Part shown: piece after piece, positions 3,883-25,069 of the stretch
Layout of the letters: every line of letters begins with the position of its first letter
Position numbering within the stretch: position 1 is the first letter of the stretch
From: a virus
IMG/VR virus record: IMGVR_UViG_3300032282_002891
Span: 1 to 30,303 of that record
Direction: 5' to 3' (one strand)
DNA length: 30,303 nt
Position numbers and translations under genes: made by a program
The notes under the pieces: model-generated
What the model saw: the letters and a program-made list of their open reading frames with translations, nothing else
Told to the model about the DNA's origin: nothing
Database searches by the model: none

Positions 3883-3896
3883 AAATAGTTAAATAG
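3883..3896. repeat. 14-bp motif AAATAGTTAAATAG, copy ahead of the capsid gene
   Basis: Reverse complement of CTATTTAACTATTT, which also occurs exactly at 14978-14991 and 18106-18119. Here it holds two AATAG units 8 bp apart (3884, 3892) and abuts the capsid gene's GGGAGG ribosome site. It may be a binding site for the RHH partition protein or a chance match. This is the least certain of the three copies because it lies inside the late operon. Confidence 0.4.
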
Positions 3897-3910
3897 GGAG
3901 GTAGTTGGAT

Positions 3911-7357: not shown

Positions 7358-7672
7358 ATGTACACACCAATTCAATTGGATAAAGTAAGAAATTTGCGTT
7401 ATGGGATGAAAGCTTTTCATTTAATAGAACAAAAGTTGAATACTAAAATATCTAAAATTGATTTTGACGAATTAAGTTTCCACGAGCAAGCAGTTTTAAT
7501 TTGGGCAGGTTTAGCGCATGAAGATTCATCGTTAAGTGTTGATGTTGTTATGGATCTGATTGACCAGTATAGCAGCATCGGAGAAGCGATTGAGTTATCC
7601 GGCAAAGCAATTTCGGCAGCGTTTGGAAAGAGTGAAGAATCGGGAAAGACAGCGGCGGCGAATTTGAAATAA
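7358..7672 (+). CDS. Tail assembly chaperone, short form (gpG-like)
   Basis: Chaperone that binds the tape measure protein during tail assembly, in the position of lambda gpG. The 104-residue zero-frame product has a helical body ('KAFHLIEQKLNTKI', 'AVLIWAGLAHED'). ATG 7358 follows AAAGGAC. Near the 3' end, codons GGA AAG sit in the slippery heptamer GGGAAAG (7642-7648). Ribosomes that do not slip end at TAA 7670-7672. Confidence 0.85.
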   Translation: MYTPIQLDKVRNLRYGMKAFHLIEQKLNTKISKIDFDELSFHEQAVLIWAGLAHEDSSLSVDVVMDLIDQYSSIGEAIELSGKAISAAFGKSEESGKTAAANLK

Positions 7673-14968: not shown

Positions 14969-14977
14969 ATTTTATAA

Positions 14978-14991
14978 CTATTTAACTATTT
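14978..14991. repeat. 14-bp motif CTATTTAACTATTT with 8-bp phased units ahead of the 15-kb operon
   Basis: CTATT units at 14978 and 14986, and a variant CTACT at 15002, all share the same 8-bp phase and run into the -35 box of the promoter at 15006. The 14-bp sequence is identical to that upstream of parA at 18106-18119. Candidate operator for the RHH partition protein. Confidence 0.55.
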
Positions 14992-15005
14992 TATTAGTTA
15001 ACTAC

Positions 15006-15054
15006 TTGACCCGCTATCGGTTATATGATAATATTTACATATACCCGATAGCGG
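15006..15054 (+). promoter_or_regulatory. Promoter with paired inverted operators
   Basis: -35 TTGACC (15006-15011) and -10 region around TGATAATAT (GATAAT 15027-15032 or TAATAT 15029-15034). The 10-mer CCGCTATCGG (15011-15020) lies in the spacer, and its exact reverse complement CCGATAGCGG (15045-15054) lies just past the -10 around the start site. Each 10-mer is itself flanked by CCG...CGG. A repressor dimer pair bound here would block the promoter; its identity is unknown. Confidence 0.75.
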
Positions 15055-15077: not shown

Positions 15078-15290
15078 ATGAAAAACGCTACATTGAAATT
15101 CGAACAAGGTCTTCAAATCCTCGCAAAACTTCGCTCAGACGAAGTCATGAAATCAAACGCTCGCAGATCTTTGAAAGGTTTGTTGTATAAAATCGCTGAA
15201 GATTTATCACATCTTGAAATTTTAGAACCATCTGAATACAAGGAGGAATTTAAGCAACTACTTCCCGACCGGTGGGAGTTGAAAAAATGA
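15078..15290 (+). CDS. Conserved-style small protein of unknown function
   Basis: 70 residues, helical and charged ('LKFEQGLQILAKLRSDEVM', 'LLYKIAEDLSHLEI'), not recognised. It has a very strong ribosome site (AAGGAGGAATT) before ATG 15078 and is the first gene after the operator-controlled promoter, so it should be the best expressed of this operon. The frame is open upstream, but those codons lie over the promoter. Confidence 0.75.
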   Translation: MKNATLKFEQGLQILAKLRSDEVMKSNARRSLKGLLYKIAEDLSHLEILEPSEYKEEFKQLLPDRWELKK

Positions 15291-15508
15291 CATATGCAAT
15301 TCAAGTTTCAAACCGGGATGCGTCAACTAGTTTTACGTTTGAAATTGATTCTAAATTTGTTGTTGATGGATCAATAAATCTTATGCATACGCTAAAAGCT
15401 TATAAACTCAACGCTAGCGACCTTTTAAGCTCCGGTAATACAATTGTATTCGGAACGATAGAAAACGACAATTTCAAGCCATTACACGCATTTGGGGAAG
15501 GTATGTAA
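15287..15508 (+). CDS. Small protein of unknown function
   Basis: 73 residues beginning MTYAIQVSNRDASTSFTFEI; beta-rich first half, helical middle. Starts at ATG 15287 in an ATGA overlap with the previous gene, with GTGGGAG upstream. Not recognised. Coupled translation suggests it works with its neighbours in the operator-controlled operon. Confidence 0.65.
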   Translation: MTYAIQVSNRDASTSFTFEIDSKFVVDGSINLMHTLKAYKLNASDLLSSGNTIVFGTIENDNFKPLHAFGEGM

Positions 15509-15512
15509 AAAA

Positions 15513-15674
15513 ATGAATCCACTCGAGCAAATTATGGGAGTCATGGAAGCATCATCTATTTGGGAATTGCACCCTGACTACATCAAAAAATTGGCGCAGC
15601 AAAATAAAGTTATCGCGCGAAAGATCGGTCAAACTTGGATTTTGATAAAGGATCAGCCAAATCCAAAAAAATAA
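15513..15674 (+). CDS. Excisionase/MerR-like helix-turn-helix mini protein
   Basis: 53 residues. 'VMEASSIWELHPDYIKKLAQ' followed by 'RKIGQTWILIKDQ' matches the pattern of excisionase-type winged HTH proteins (x-A-A-x-x-W-x-L then helix, then R-K-x-G-x-x-W-x-I). GGGGAAGG lies 13-20 nt before ATG 15513. It could bind the operators at 15011-15054 as an autoregulator, but that is inference. No integrase is nearby, so a true excisionase role is unlikely. Confidence 0.65.
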   Translation: MNPLEQIMGVMEASSIWELHPDYIKKLAQQNKVIARKIGQTWILIKDQPNPKK

Positions 15675-16049: not shown

Positions 16050-16075
16050 AAGGACTCATTAAATGAGTCCTTTTT
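16050..16075 (+). terminator. Intrinsic terminator between convergent operons
   Basis: AAGGACTCA / TGAGTCCTT stem (16050-16058 with 16064-16072) with an AT loop, then TTTTT. It ends the plus-strand small-gene operon. The minus-strand rep stop codon lies in the loop; that side has no clear T run, so it is mainly a plus-strand terminator. Confidence 0.8.
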
Positions 16076-16793
16076 CGTATTCTCTAACCTTAAGACGCAC
16101 ACGTTCGACTTCCTCGCGATTTTTTGACCACTCCAATATGTCTTTTAATTTCTCATCATCAATATCAACTGGATCATTTTCAAAGCTAACCATTTTTACA
16201 TCCGGACGTTTTGATTTTTGTTTCGGTTCATTGGCGATCAACTTCTCGACATAGCTATAAAGGTTGTGAATTTTAGTTTTGTTGTGTAATATTTTTTGTT
16301 TGATTTTTTCTTTTTGTTCATCAGAAATTGTAAAAGATGAAAGACACTCATCTATCTCTTTTAAATCTCTTTTAATCTCTTTAAGATCTTTTAAATCTTT
16401 TAAATCTTTATAGGGTATCTCACAGATACTAGGGTGGTCTCCCACAGATACTAGGGGTGGTATCTCACAGATACTAGGGTGGTCTCCCACAGATACTAGG
16501 TTATATGTATTTGTTGCATTCATAATTTTACGTTCAGCAGTAACAGTTAAGTTTGTTTTTTTGATTAAAAGACCTTTTTCCTCAAGTCCTTGAACAGCTC
16601 GAATTGCTGTCAAACGTGACATGCTGCCATTTTCAGCAATCGTTTTATAACTAGGGAACGCAGAGTTATCTCTAGGATTGCAAAACGAACGAATCACAAC
16701 GTATGCCATTTTTTCATAAATCGTCAAACCTTTAATTGTTAAAATTTCAACCGGTACAATAAATGCGTTTAAATCTGAATTTAACTTGTCCAT
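16059..16793 (-). CDS. Plasmid replication initiator (RepN-like, HTH_36 type)
   Basis: Likely starts plasmid-mode theta replication. Residues about 20-100 form a winged HTH ('TIYEKMAYVVIRSF', 'FPSYKTIAENGSMSRLTAIRAVQGLEEKGLL') as in plasmid Rep and phage replisome organisers. A direct 15-residue repeat (LVSVGDHPSICEIPP, LVSVGDHPSICEIPY, about 98-128) and a KDLKDLKDLKEIKRD stretch are encoded by DNA that looks like an origin. The C-terminal part is charged and helical. At 244 residues it resembles Bacillus pLS32 RepN in having 22-bp iterons inside the gene (from memory). It is read toward the terminator; the ribosome site is AAGGGAG. Confidence 0.8.
   Translation of the reverse strand: MDKLNSDLNAFIVPVEILTIKGLTIYEKMAYVVIRSFCNPRDNSAFPSYKTIAENGSMSRLTAIRAVQGLEEKGLLIKKTNLTVTAERKIMNATNTYNLVSVGDHPSICEIPPLVSVGDHPSICEIPYKDLKDLKDLKEIKRDLKEIDECLSSFTISDEQKEKIKQKILHNKTKIHNLYSYVEKLIANEPKQKSKRPDVKMVSFENDPVDIDDEKLKDILEWSKNREEVERVRLKVREYEKGLI
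16355..16412. repeat. AT-rich 9-11-mers inside rep: candidate unwinding element
   Basis: Near-tandem CTCTTTTAAAT, CTCTTTTAAT, CTCTTTAAGAT, CTTTTAAAT, CTTTTAAAT, CTTTATAG units lie directly next to the iterons. Such AT-rich tandem blocks beside iterons are where plasmid origins melt. Confidence 0.65.
16421..16500. repeat. Four iterons (CACAGATACTAGG) inside rep: plasmid origin
   Basis: Exact 13-bp copies at 16421-16433, 16443-16455, 16466-16478 and 16488-16500, spaced 22, 23 and 22 bp (two helical turns), each followed or preceded by GTGG and a TCTC-like segment. The 45-bp double unit corresponds to the 15-residue repeat in the protein. With the adjoining AT-rich block this is a candidate replication origin. 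Confidence 0.8.
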
Positions 16794-16826
16794 AATATAA
16801 TTTGCTCCCTTTTTTTTAAACAGAAA

Positions 16827-16857
16827 AGACCTGTAATCCGCAGTGGGATACAGGTCT
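16827..16857 (-). terminator. Attenuator hairpin in the rep leader
   Basis: AGACCTGTA (16827-16835) pairs with TACAGGTCT (16849-16857). Read on the minus strand, the stem is followed by TTTTCTGTTT and then, about 35 nt on, the rep start. It has the form of a transcription attenuator, as in plasmids whose rep is controlled by antisense RNA. Confidence 0.65.
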
Positions 16858-16867
16858 CATTTTACAC

Positions 16868-16897
16868 TTGAAAACCAATCAGCTTATGTTGTACACT
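16868..16897 (+). promoter_or_regulatory. Putative promoter of a rep antisense RNA
   Basis: TTGAAA (16868-16873) and TACACT (16892-16897), spacing 18 bp. It faces against rep transcription and would make an RNA covering the rep leader. Both boxes are imperfect. Confidence 0.45.
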
Positions 16898-16903
16898 GAG
16901 GTA

Positions 16904-17008
16904 GTCAAAGTCTATTTTCAGAGTCCTGTTTCCCGAAGTCATCTTTCGGATCAAGCAGCTTCGGTCGCCAAACCGAGTACTTGTGAAACTAGGCTTTTTG
17001 TTTTTTTA
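16904..17008 (+). ncRNA. Putative countertranscript RNA controlling rep
   Basis: Non-coding stretch complementary to the rep leader, with hairpins CCGAA/TTCGG (16934-16949 region) and CAAG..CT(T)CGGT / ACCGAG..CTTG (16952-16983), and a T-rich tract TTTTTGTTTTTTT at 16995-17007. Location, structure and the attenuator on the opposite strand match antisense control of plasmid rep genes. No conserved family is recognised; transcription is inferred. Confidence 0.4.
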
Positions 17009-17021
17009 ATTTACATTGCTG

Positions 17022-17050
17022 ATTTTATACGTCAATTAAATAATAGTCAA
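17022..17050 (-). promoter_or_regulatory. rep promoter
   Basis: On the minus strand, TTGACT (17050-17045), 17-bp spacer, TAAAAT (17027-17022). Close to consensus. It gives a leader of about 220 nt before rep that contains the attenuator hairpin. Confidence 0.75.
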
Positions 17051-17055
17051 TTAGA

Positions 17056-17086
17056 AAATAGACAACCAATTAATGGTTGTCTATTT
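17056..17086 (-). terminator. Intrinsic terminator of the par operon
   Basis: Perfect 13-bp stem AAATAGACAACCA / TGGTTGTCTATTT with a 5-nt loop containing the stop codon of the RHH gene. On the minus strand it runs into TTTTC. It separates par transcription from rep. Confidence 0.8.
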
Positions 17087-17348
17087 CTTTGTCCAAATAC
17101 TCCAGGATTGCTTTATTAACTATTGTGTACATTTCTATTTCACTCTTATAAGACAAGTCTTTGAGTCGCTTATGTGTGGATCGCAGGAGCTGAAAGTTGA
17201 ATTGAATATACGTTTCTTCTTTTTTGATTTTTTCGCGTTCCTTTTCGGCTGCTTTTTGTTCTTTTGCGCGGATCCGATCAGCTTTGAAAACTTCCTTCGG
17301 TTTTACAACTTCTTTATTAATCATCCGGTTTACTAAATTATCTAACAC
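17070..17348 (-). CDS. Small ribbon-helix-helix partition partner (ParB/ParG-like)
   Basis: 92 residues: a flexible basic and coiled-coil N-terminal half (about 15-50, Lys/Glu/Arg rich), then a strand-helix-helix unit ('YIQFNFQLLRSTHKRLKDLS', 'EMYTIVNKAILEYLDKE') typical of RHH DNA binders. It overlaps the 3' end of parA by 11 bp, so it is translated with it. In type Ib systems such proteins bind tandem short repeats upstream of parA and stimulate ParA ATPase through the N-terminal arm. The 8-bp repeats at 18098-18126 are the probable site. Confidence 0.75.
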   Translation of the reverse strand: MLDNLVNRMINKEVVKPKEVFKADRIRAKEQKAAEKEREKIKKEETYIQFNFQLLRSTHKRLKDLSYKSEIEMYTIVNKAILEYLDKEIDNH

Positions 17349-18081
17349 GTCCGATCAACTCCTTTTCGAGTAAAATATATTGTCTTAATGCGTTTCGGTC
17401 TGATAGTCCTAAAATCGAAATACCTTCAGACGACATTCTTCTTAAACGGATCCGCTTGTAAATTGTAGCGTCAAATAGCAGATTTTTGAAAATCGTTTTA
17501 GCAGCCTCGAATACTTCTTGAGAATAATTATCCGTTTCAAACATCGCGACGACAATTCCGATCAACTTTAGGTGCGTGTTAATCTGTTTTACCTGTTCGA
17601 CTTTAGAAATAAATCTACCCATTGCATCAAGCGAAAACGGTTGTGATTGCATCATGCCGATTACGTGCGTAGAAGCAATTAATGACGTAAGTAAATGGTC
17701 TCCAAGTGAAGGAGGTGTATCGATCAATATATAATCGTAATCGCTTAAAACCGGTTCAAGCGTGTTTTTTAACAAGTAGTAATTGTCTGTACGAAAAAGC
17801 GCTAAATCTTCAACAGCAGGGAGCAGATGTAGGTGATGATTTTTAAGTTTTGTGTCGTAGATGTAATGTGCAGCGTTTTGTGATTCAATTGCGTGCAGCA
17901 CGTTAGCATGTTCAAATACGCTACTATCCTGGATTGATATCATCTGCGTGAGATTTGTCTGCATGTCCATATCAACAGCAAGGACTCGATAGGTGCGAGA
18001 AAGTAGCCAGGCTAATATTGCGGTGGTTGTCGTTTTTCCGACACCACCTTTTTGATTACCAATTGTTATAATTTTTGTCAT
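17338..18081 (-). CDS. parA: ParA-type partition ATPase
   Basis: Distributes plasmid copies at division. Deviant Walker A KGGVGKTT (residues 11-18), Walker A' 'VDMDMQTNLT' (36-45) and Walker B 'ILIDTPPS' (118-125, Asp121). At 247 residues with no N-terminal DNA-binding domain it is of the short type Ib/Soj-like class. First gene of the minus-strand par operon; the RHH gene follows with overlap. A partition ATPase in a phage genome without integrase strongly suggests a plasmid prophage state. Confidence 0.95.
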   Translation of the reverse strand: MTKIITIGNQKGGVGKTTTTAILAWLLSRTYRVLAVDMDMQTNLTQMISIQDSSVFEHANVLHAIESQNAAHYIYDTKLKNHHLHLLPAVEDLALFRTDNYYLLKNTLEPVLSDYDYILIDTPPSLGDHLLTSLIASTHVIGMMQSQPFSLDAMGRFISKVEQVKQINTHLKLIGIVVAMFETDNYSQEVFEAAKTIFKNLLFDATIYKRIRLRRMSSEGISILGLSDRNALRQYILLEKELIGRVR

Positions 18082-18097
18082 TTATCTAACAACCTTT

Positions 18098-18126
18098 CTA
18101 TTCGACTATTTAACTATTTTACTATT
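18098..18126. repeat. 8-bp phased repeats at the parA promoter: candidate centromere/operator
   Basis: CTATT cores at 18098, 18106, 18114 and 18122, exactly 8 bp apart; the octamers are TTTCTATT, CGACTATT, TAACTATT and TTACTATT. They span the parA transcription start on the minus strand, so a bound RHH protein would repress the operon and could nucleate the partition complex. Confidence 0.65.
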
Positions 18127-24782: not shown

Positions 24783-24836
24783 AGTCCGTTCGAATGTCTG
24801 TACGTGTCTGTACGTTGTCTGTACGTTGTCTGTTCG
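24783..24836. repeat. TGTCTGTACG direct repeats (candidate lytic-origin iterons)
   Basis: Exact copies at 24795-24804, 24805-24814 and 24816-24825, variant TGTCTGTTCG at 24827-24836 and a degenerate copy at 24783-24792. Periods are 10-12 bp, one helical turn, in the 301-bp gene-free interval (24769-25069) after the primase-helicase. Confidence 0.75.
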
Positions 24837-24931
24837 TCAAAAAAACCTTTATCTATCACCTTTTTTTAATATTTTATATTAATTAGAACAGAGAACAGAA
24901 AAAAGTATAATTTCAGAAATAAAAAAAATTT

Positions 24932-25007
24932 AGGCGCTACAGGCGCTACATTTTAATTTTTAAGATTTTTTGTAGCGCCTGTAGCGCCTGTAGCGCCTGT
25001 AGCGCCT
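24932..25007. repeat. Inverted and direct 9-bp repeats (GTAGCGCCT) around an AT-rich core
   Basis: Two contiguous AGGCGCTAC copies (24932-24949), 22 bp almost purely A/T, then four contiguous reverse-complement GTAGCGCCT copies (24972-25007). The inner pairs form a 19-bp perfect stem. With the TGTCTGTACG iterons, this forms a candidate origin for lytic replication; a T run after 25008 means it could also terminate transcription. The rest of 24769-25069 shows AT-rich sequence only. Confidence 0.8.
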
Positions 25008-25069
25008 GTTTTTTGTGTAAATGTTAAAAGTGTGTTTTTTCTGTTCAGTCTGTTCACAAGGAGGGTAAA

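Follow-up and report, generated by a model that had tools for sequence, protein, structure and literature searches.

Two phased octamer arrays in a virus genome, one in the parA leader and one at a phage promoter, are candidate sites of an RHH partition protein

The window, by which we mean the whole stretch of 30,303 bases that was analysed and the whole of its virus record, carries two four-copy arrays of TAGTNRAA-type octamers with a period of 8 bp, one in the leader of a parA gene (array 1) and one beside the promoter of an operon at 15 kb (array 2) (Table 1). The explanation that we favor, and hold as a whole to be probable, is that a small RHH ParB encoded with parA would occupy both arrays, array 1 being its centromere and operator and array 2 a second site.

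Table 1. Features of the window that bear on the two arrays
Feature	Position	Strand	Description
Octamer array 1	18093..18124	-	Period-8 array; TAGTAAAA (18117-18124), TAGTTAAA (18109-18116), TAGTCGAA (18101-18108), and degenerate TAGAAAGG (18093-18100), in parA sense; candidate centromere (parS) and parAB operator
Octamer array 2	14973..15004	-	Period-8 array; TAGTTAAC, TAATAAAA, TAGTTAAA, and TAGTTATA, read from 15004 down to 14973; candidate second RHH site by the 15-kb promoter
parA	17338..18081	-	Walker-type ParA ATPase of 247 aa, lacking an N-terminal DNA-binding domain
RHH protein (ParB-like)	17070..17348	-	92 aa; GTG start; 11-bp overlap with the end of parA
rep-like HTH_36 gene	16059-16793	-	Contains 22-bp repeats
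15-kb operon promoter	15006..15034	+	TTGACC-17-TAATAT, TG before the -10
15-kb operon	15078..15674	+	Three ORFs (70, 73, and 53 aa)
70-aa ORF	15078-15290	+	No family
73-aa ORF	15287-15508	+	No family
53-aa ORF	15513-15674	+	HTH protein: HTH_59 (1e-6); excisionase-like PHROG (3e-7)
Claimed third site, capsid leader	3886..3909	+	TAGTTAAA TAGGGAGG TAGTTGGA; overlaps the ribosome site; weak

Results

An unbiased scan of the 30 kb returned exactly these two four-copy period-8 arrays (scan positions 14973 and 18095), both on the minus strand and with 17 bp identical between them. The observed score was 28/32, and no other place in the window reached the threshold of at least 27/32. Simulations with an order-4 Markov model of the same composition gave 0.003 arrays per genome at a score of 27/32, and no array at 28/32 arose in 300 simulations; practically none is expected by chance. 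Array 2 is thus supported by statistics of its own and not merely by the 14-mer that it shares with array 1, since such a period-8 score is rarely reached in simulations. A sequence-only reading of this DNA had reported four CTATT copies exactly 8 bp apart and a 14-mer recurring at three loci, and both reports were confirmed: the cores lie at 18098, 18106, 18114, and 18122, and the 14-mer (CTATTTAACTATTT) is present exactly at 14978 (+) and 18106 (+) and inverted at 3883. Local tandem repeats aside, no other 14-mer of the window occurs at three sites. The copy at 14978 is part of a genuine array of four octamers, array 2.

With three good copies and one degenerate copy, array 1 is short next to the array of pTEF1; it fits TAGTNRRR, with TAGTA in only one of its four octamers. 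The repeats had been said to cover the start of parA, which holds for the leader, including the likely Shine-Dalgarno AAAGG inside the array, and fails for the start codon (18079-18081), which lies outside; array 1 is confined to the leader, where it also overlaps a poor candidate -10 (TAAAAT). Its place directly upstream of parA is one where RHH partition proteins bind, in keeping with the earlier proposal, and array 1 is most likely the centromere and parAB operator of a known kind of system.

ParA of the window matches Pfam AAA_31 (8e-37) and the PHROG ParA-like partition protein (6e-48), as well as NCBIfam PrgP at 7e-25, under the cut-off of that model. Several marks of a type Ib ParABS system were found: a short ParA whose Walker domain starts at residue 2, leaving no N-terminal DNA-binding domain; a small RHH partner directly downstream; and, in array 1, what would be a short phased-repeat centromere beside the operon. 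Assignment of the 92-aa partner to the RHH proteins, as the sequence-only reading had it, is borne out by the agreement of an RHH profile with the predicted fold. Searched alone, the protein had no match in Pfam and its closest matches among solved structures were at chance level; it matched the PHROG Arc-like repressor at 1.3e-5. A profile of five sequences, made of the window protein and four relatives so that its matches belong to the group, matched the solved RHH proteins 56B (5e-9), ParG (2e-4), and omega (3e-3). In the alignment-based model of the protein, residues 45 to 91 form, at high confidence, an extended segment and then two helices, and RHH proteins were the best Foldseek matches to this model (high target TM-score, E-values of >0.1); the charged N-terminal half, for which model confidence is low, agrees with the plan of ParG/omega. 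A single-sequence model consisting of one long helix was not trusted. The parA gene and the gene overlapping it are likely a type Ib partition pair (ParA plus RHH ParB), of which the RHH protein is the likely binder of the octamers.

Relatives of the parA cassette were compared at 27 loci (the window, L002, L077, 22 plasmid or phage loci, pTEF1, and pCF10), at each of which a small partner ORF overlaps or adjoins the gene for this ParA. At each locus, 260 bp upstream, 260 bp downstream, and a control stretch within parA were tested, and a phased repeat was counted when a four-copy repeat with a period of 5 to 14 was matched by at most 1% of dinucleotide shuffles. Phased repeats were present upstream of parA at 17/27 loci (window included), after parB at 10/27, and inside parA at 1/27; since ten periods were tried per stretch, a few chance matches per class are expected, which the control gauges. 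The search in relatives that had been proposed as a check thus recovered repeats at the expected place, with periods of 6, 8, 9, or 12 bp. Period 8 upstream of parA was seen in the window, L002, L065, L066 (which other periods fit too), L077, and pTEF1, and the lineages divide into a 6-bp AACGTA type, an 8-bp TACA type (L002, L065, and L077), an 8-bp TAGT type (pTEF1 and the window), and a 9-bp type in pCF10. In the ParA tree, like periods clustered beyond shuffled labels, and the window ParA, on a long branch, grouped with plasmid ParA proteins and not with two chromosomal Soj proteins (support, 92/77).

Arrays lie on both sides of parAB in pTEF1, pCF10, L002, and several 6-bp types. Every triplet of TACA octamers in L002, a 33-kb viral contig, is just upstream of parA or after parB, and no arrays away from partition and replication genes were found in L002 or in the pTEF1 stretches searched, a point against the favored explanation. 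In the par locus of Alicyclobacillus ferrooxydans (L077:9600-11070), clusters of ATACAGGA precede parA, occur near the parA start, and are found again within and beyond parB; a further octamer pair of L077, at 16686 within a glycosidase-like gene, was attributed to chance. Two in-phase octamers (TAGTCAAT and TAGAAAAT, 17044-17059 within 17034-17065, +) stand just after parB of the window, the position of the second array in several relatives; genome-wide, the pair is no better than chance and was set aside. Among viral contigs at large, TAGTNRRR arrays gave 25 matches, mostly simple tandem repeats, with no ParA motif in the DNA fetched.

The -35 box of the 15-kb promoter begins 2 bp past array 2. 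Control of this operon by the RHH protein is a fair inference, because array 2 ends so close to the -35 box of a good promoter, and the operon is a plausible second target. By analogy with omega of pSM19035, which has sites at several promoters, array 2 is probably a second site of the same RHH protein; a passive role as second centromere element is nearly as consistent with the data as control of the operon. Since no whole-phage close relative was found in searches with the RHH protein, primase, ParA, and capsid-relative records, the case for array 2 is made from statistics and precedent. The same promoter has around its -10, at 15011-15054, a perfect inverted repeat of 10 bp (CCGCTATCGG/CCGATAGCGG) that occurs nowhere else in the window; it is likely the operator of another repressor, and because it sits there a second regulator probably acts at this promoter.

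The maintenance region spans 15.0-18.4 kb of the window, with rep and parAB located between the two arrays. The rep-like gene contains within its coding sequence, at 16414-16500, about four 22-bp repeats (GGTATCTCACAGATACTAGGGT...), which are probable origin iterons. Between rep and parB, the predicted folding of 16815-17020 surpasses that of shuffled sequences for either strand (z about -3.1), and a plus-strand promoter-like site is present at 16868-16897. This region could encode an antisense transcript that controls copy number by targeting the rep leader; the Rfam search gave no match, there or elsewhere. Farther along, at 24795-25009, tandem 11-bp (TGTCTGTACGT) and 9-bp (TGTAGCGCC) repeats follow a primase-like gene.

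Terminase, portal, capsid, tail, and lysis genes are also present, and the window is probably the genome or near-genome of a temperate phage persisting as a plasmid, a reading drawn from the presence of rep and par genes and from meeting no integrase among the genes examined. Neither the RHH protein nor the primase retrieved close relatives as a query. TerL relatives at 70% (L020 and L021) were set aside as short contigs without ParA, and the closest match in a genome scan with the window ParA was at 38%, the matches being mostly chromosomal Soj-type, as judged by titles.

Capsid expression had also been placed, with reserve, under the partition protein, on account of the inverted 14-mer. At this site, two good octamers flank a poor middle one, the octamer of the ribosome site; with the motif TAGTNAAA the three copies score 16/21, for which 0.37 sites are expected per genome, and a site at 7425, within a coding gene, scores equally. 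By chance, a 14-mer of either array would recur at some unrelated locus with a probability of 0.023 (about 2%, borderline). Fifteen viral loci with a capsid 56-64% identical had no TAGT octamers in the capsid leader and no ParA motif in the DNA fetched for them, and the window ParA had no match in seven of these records, each searched in full, a result that proves little for fragments. The structural and maintenance modules seem to be of separate history, because the capsid relatives show neither octamers nor ParA motif. With two good octamers only, a near-chance match, and no counterpart in the 15 relatives, we dropped the capsid regulon as unsupported; the site is probably not part of the partition system, the comparison with relatives being silent on function in the window itself.

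Discussion

We infer binding of the RHH protein, autoregulation of parAB, and an effect of array 2 as follows. RHH dimers would sit side by side on the octamers. In the parA leader, the four octamers of array 1 would be centromere and operator at once: RHH protein bound there would stimulate ParA, leading to segregation, and would repress parAB, as the overlap of array 1 with the leader, the Shine-Dalgarno, and the candidate -10 suggests. Array 2, upstream of the 15-kb promoter, would be bound by the same protein and act as a second centromere element, in control of the operon, or both.

Array 2 might instead have no regulatory role and be a displaced second half of a centromere of which array 1 is the other, placed at the far edge of the maintenance module, with its closeness to the promoter incidental. 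Arrays flanking parAB are found in the relatives named above and in pBMB165 (PMC1626470), and arrays 1 and 2 share one orientation and bracket the 15.0-18.1 kb that hold rep and parAB; however, array 2 lies 2.1 kb beyond parB rather than adjacent to it and stops at a classic control position, 2 bp before a -35 box, and we consider this account unlikely. A still smaller chance attaches to array 2 being the AT-rich UP element of a strong promoter that resembles array 1 by accident: it is A+T-rich, lies just upstream of the -35 where UP elements act, and contains one octamer (TAATAAAA) that deviates from the motif, but its period-8 score together with the exact 17-bp identity with array 1 is hardly reached in same-composition simulations. 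That the octamers are iterons for the Rep protein and not partition sites, as the loss of replication of pBMB165 upon deletion of its 8-bp repeat region might suggest (PMC1626470), is very improbable, given that the rep-like gene has its own four 22-bp repeats as a better origin candidate and that phased repeats accompany the parA leader across relatives.

Within the preferred reading, of one RHH protein on both arrays, we put forward tentatively, and as the more doubtful part, that this protein couples segregation of the prophage to the 15-kb phage operon, so that centromere-type occupancy would report the lysogenic state at a promoter with a separate palindromic operator. If so, the phage would join the replicons whose segregation protein also regulates more than one operon, and arrays 1 and 2 would be two defined 32-bp sites for direct testing.

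The octamers resemble those of the pAD1/pTEF1 RepB-RepC cassette of Enterococcus faecalis, in which, as in the window, ParA is encoded with a small overlapping downstream gene. In pTEF1, which is pAD1-like, TAGTARRR forms two runs totaling 24 phased copies in the interval that separates the ParA gene from repA, oriented as parA, and recurs three times past the partner gene. It thus shares with the window TAGT octamers spaced 8 bp apart that precede the ParA gene in like orientation, with a few copies farther off; it differs in having more than 20 copies rather than four, in a ParA that is merely 28% identical, and in a second cluster right after the partner gene instead of before a phage operon. 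The iterons of pAD1 are described as TAGTRRR (PMC9743546). The pTEF1 partner is a DUF5388 protein to which the window RHH protein has no detectable similarity, so that the common octamer may be convergence, and the window is not filed under the RepB/RepC family; pAD1-type octamers here occur with a partner protein without detectable similarity to RepC. Nor did the partner prove to be a PrgO homologue: it aligned with PrgO of pCF10 over 44 residues (E value of 2e-4 in one comparison) and scored 15 bits against NCBIfam PrgO, for which the cut-off is 100. As a source of TAGT octamers, pCF10 was discarded, having 9-bp repeats instead.

Other known systems have features in common with the window. 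In plasmids of the pBMB165/pXO2 type (Bacillus cereus group), 8-bp repeats flank an overlapping parA-like/partner pair, an arrangement needed for stability in pBMB165; their consensus, however, is AT[A]GTGTAA, and the repeat region is required for replication (PMC1626470). Bacillus phage B83, a plasmid prophage, combines a ParG-like RHH adaptor for partition with iterons that precede the operon; its motor is ParM, not ParA, and the part of the account consulted mentions no second site (PMC6669507). ParF-ParG of TP228 has, like the window, an RHH ParB (its ParG structure being among our profile matches) and a short-repeat centromere beside the par operon, which is regulated through additional repeats; its repeat sequence is another, its centromere is larger, and no second operon is mentioned in the portion of the source drawn on (PMC5016525).

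A precedent for more than one site is omega/delta of pSM19035, where an RHH protein again works with a ParA. Omega binds short contiguous repeats, its parS sites overlap the copS, delta, and omega promoters, and full ParA activation requires four contiguous repeats, which suffice (PMC9499535), the number present in each of arrays 1 and 2. The repeats of pSM19035 are 7-bp WATCACW, at six sites of 7-10 copies, and its genes form separate transcription units; in the window the repeats are 8 bp long with the motif TAGTNRAA, and parA and parB overlap. The precedent invoked by the sequence-only reading, one RHH protein acting at several promoters, is real (PMC9499535), and the window may be a further case, its two arrays lying in the leader of parA and beside a promoter.
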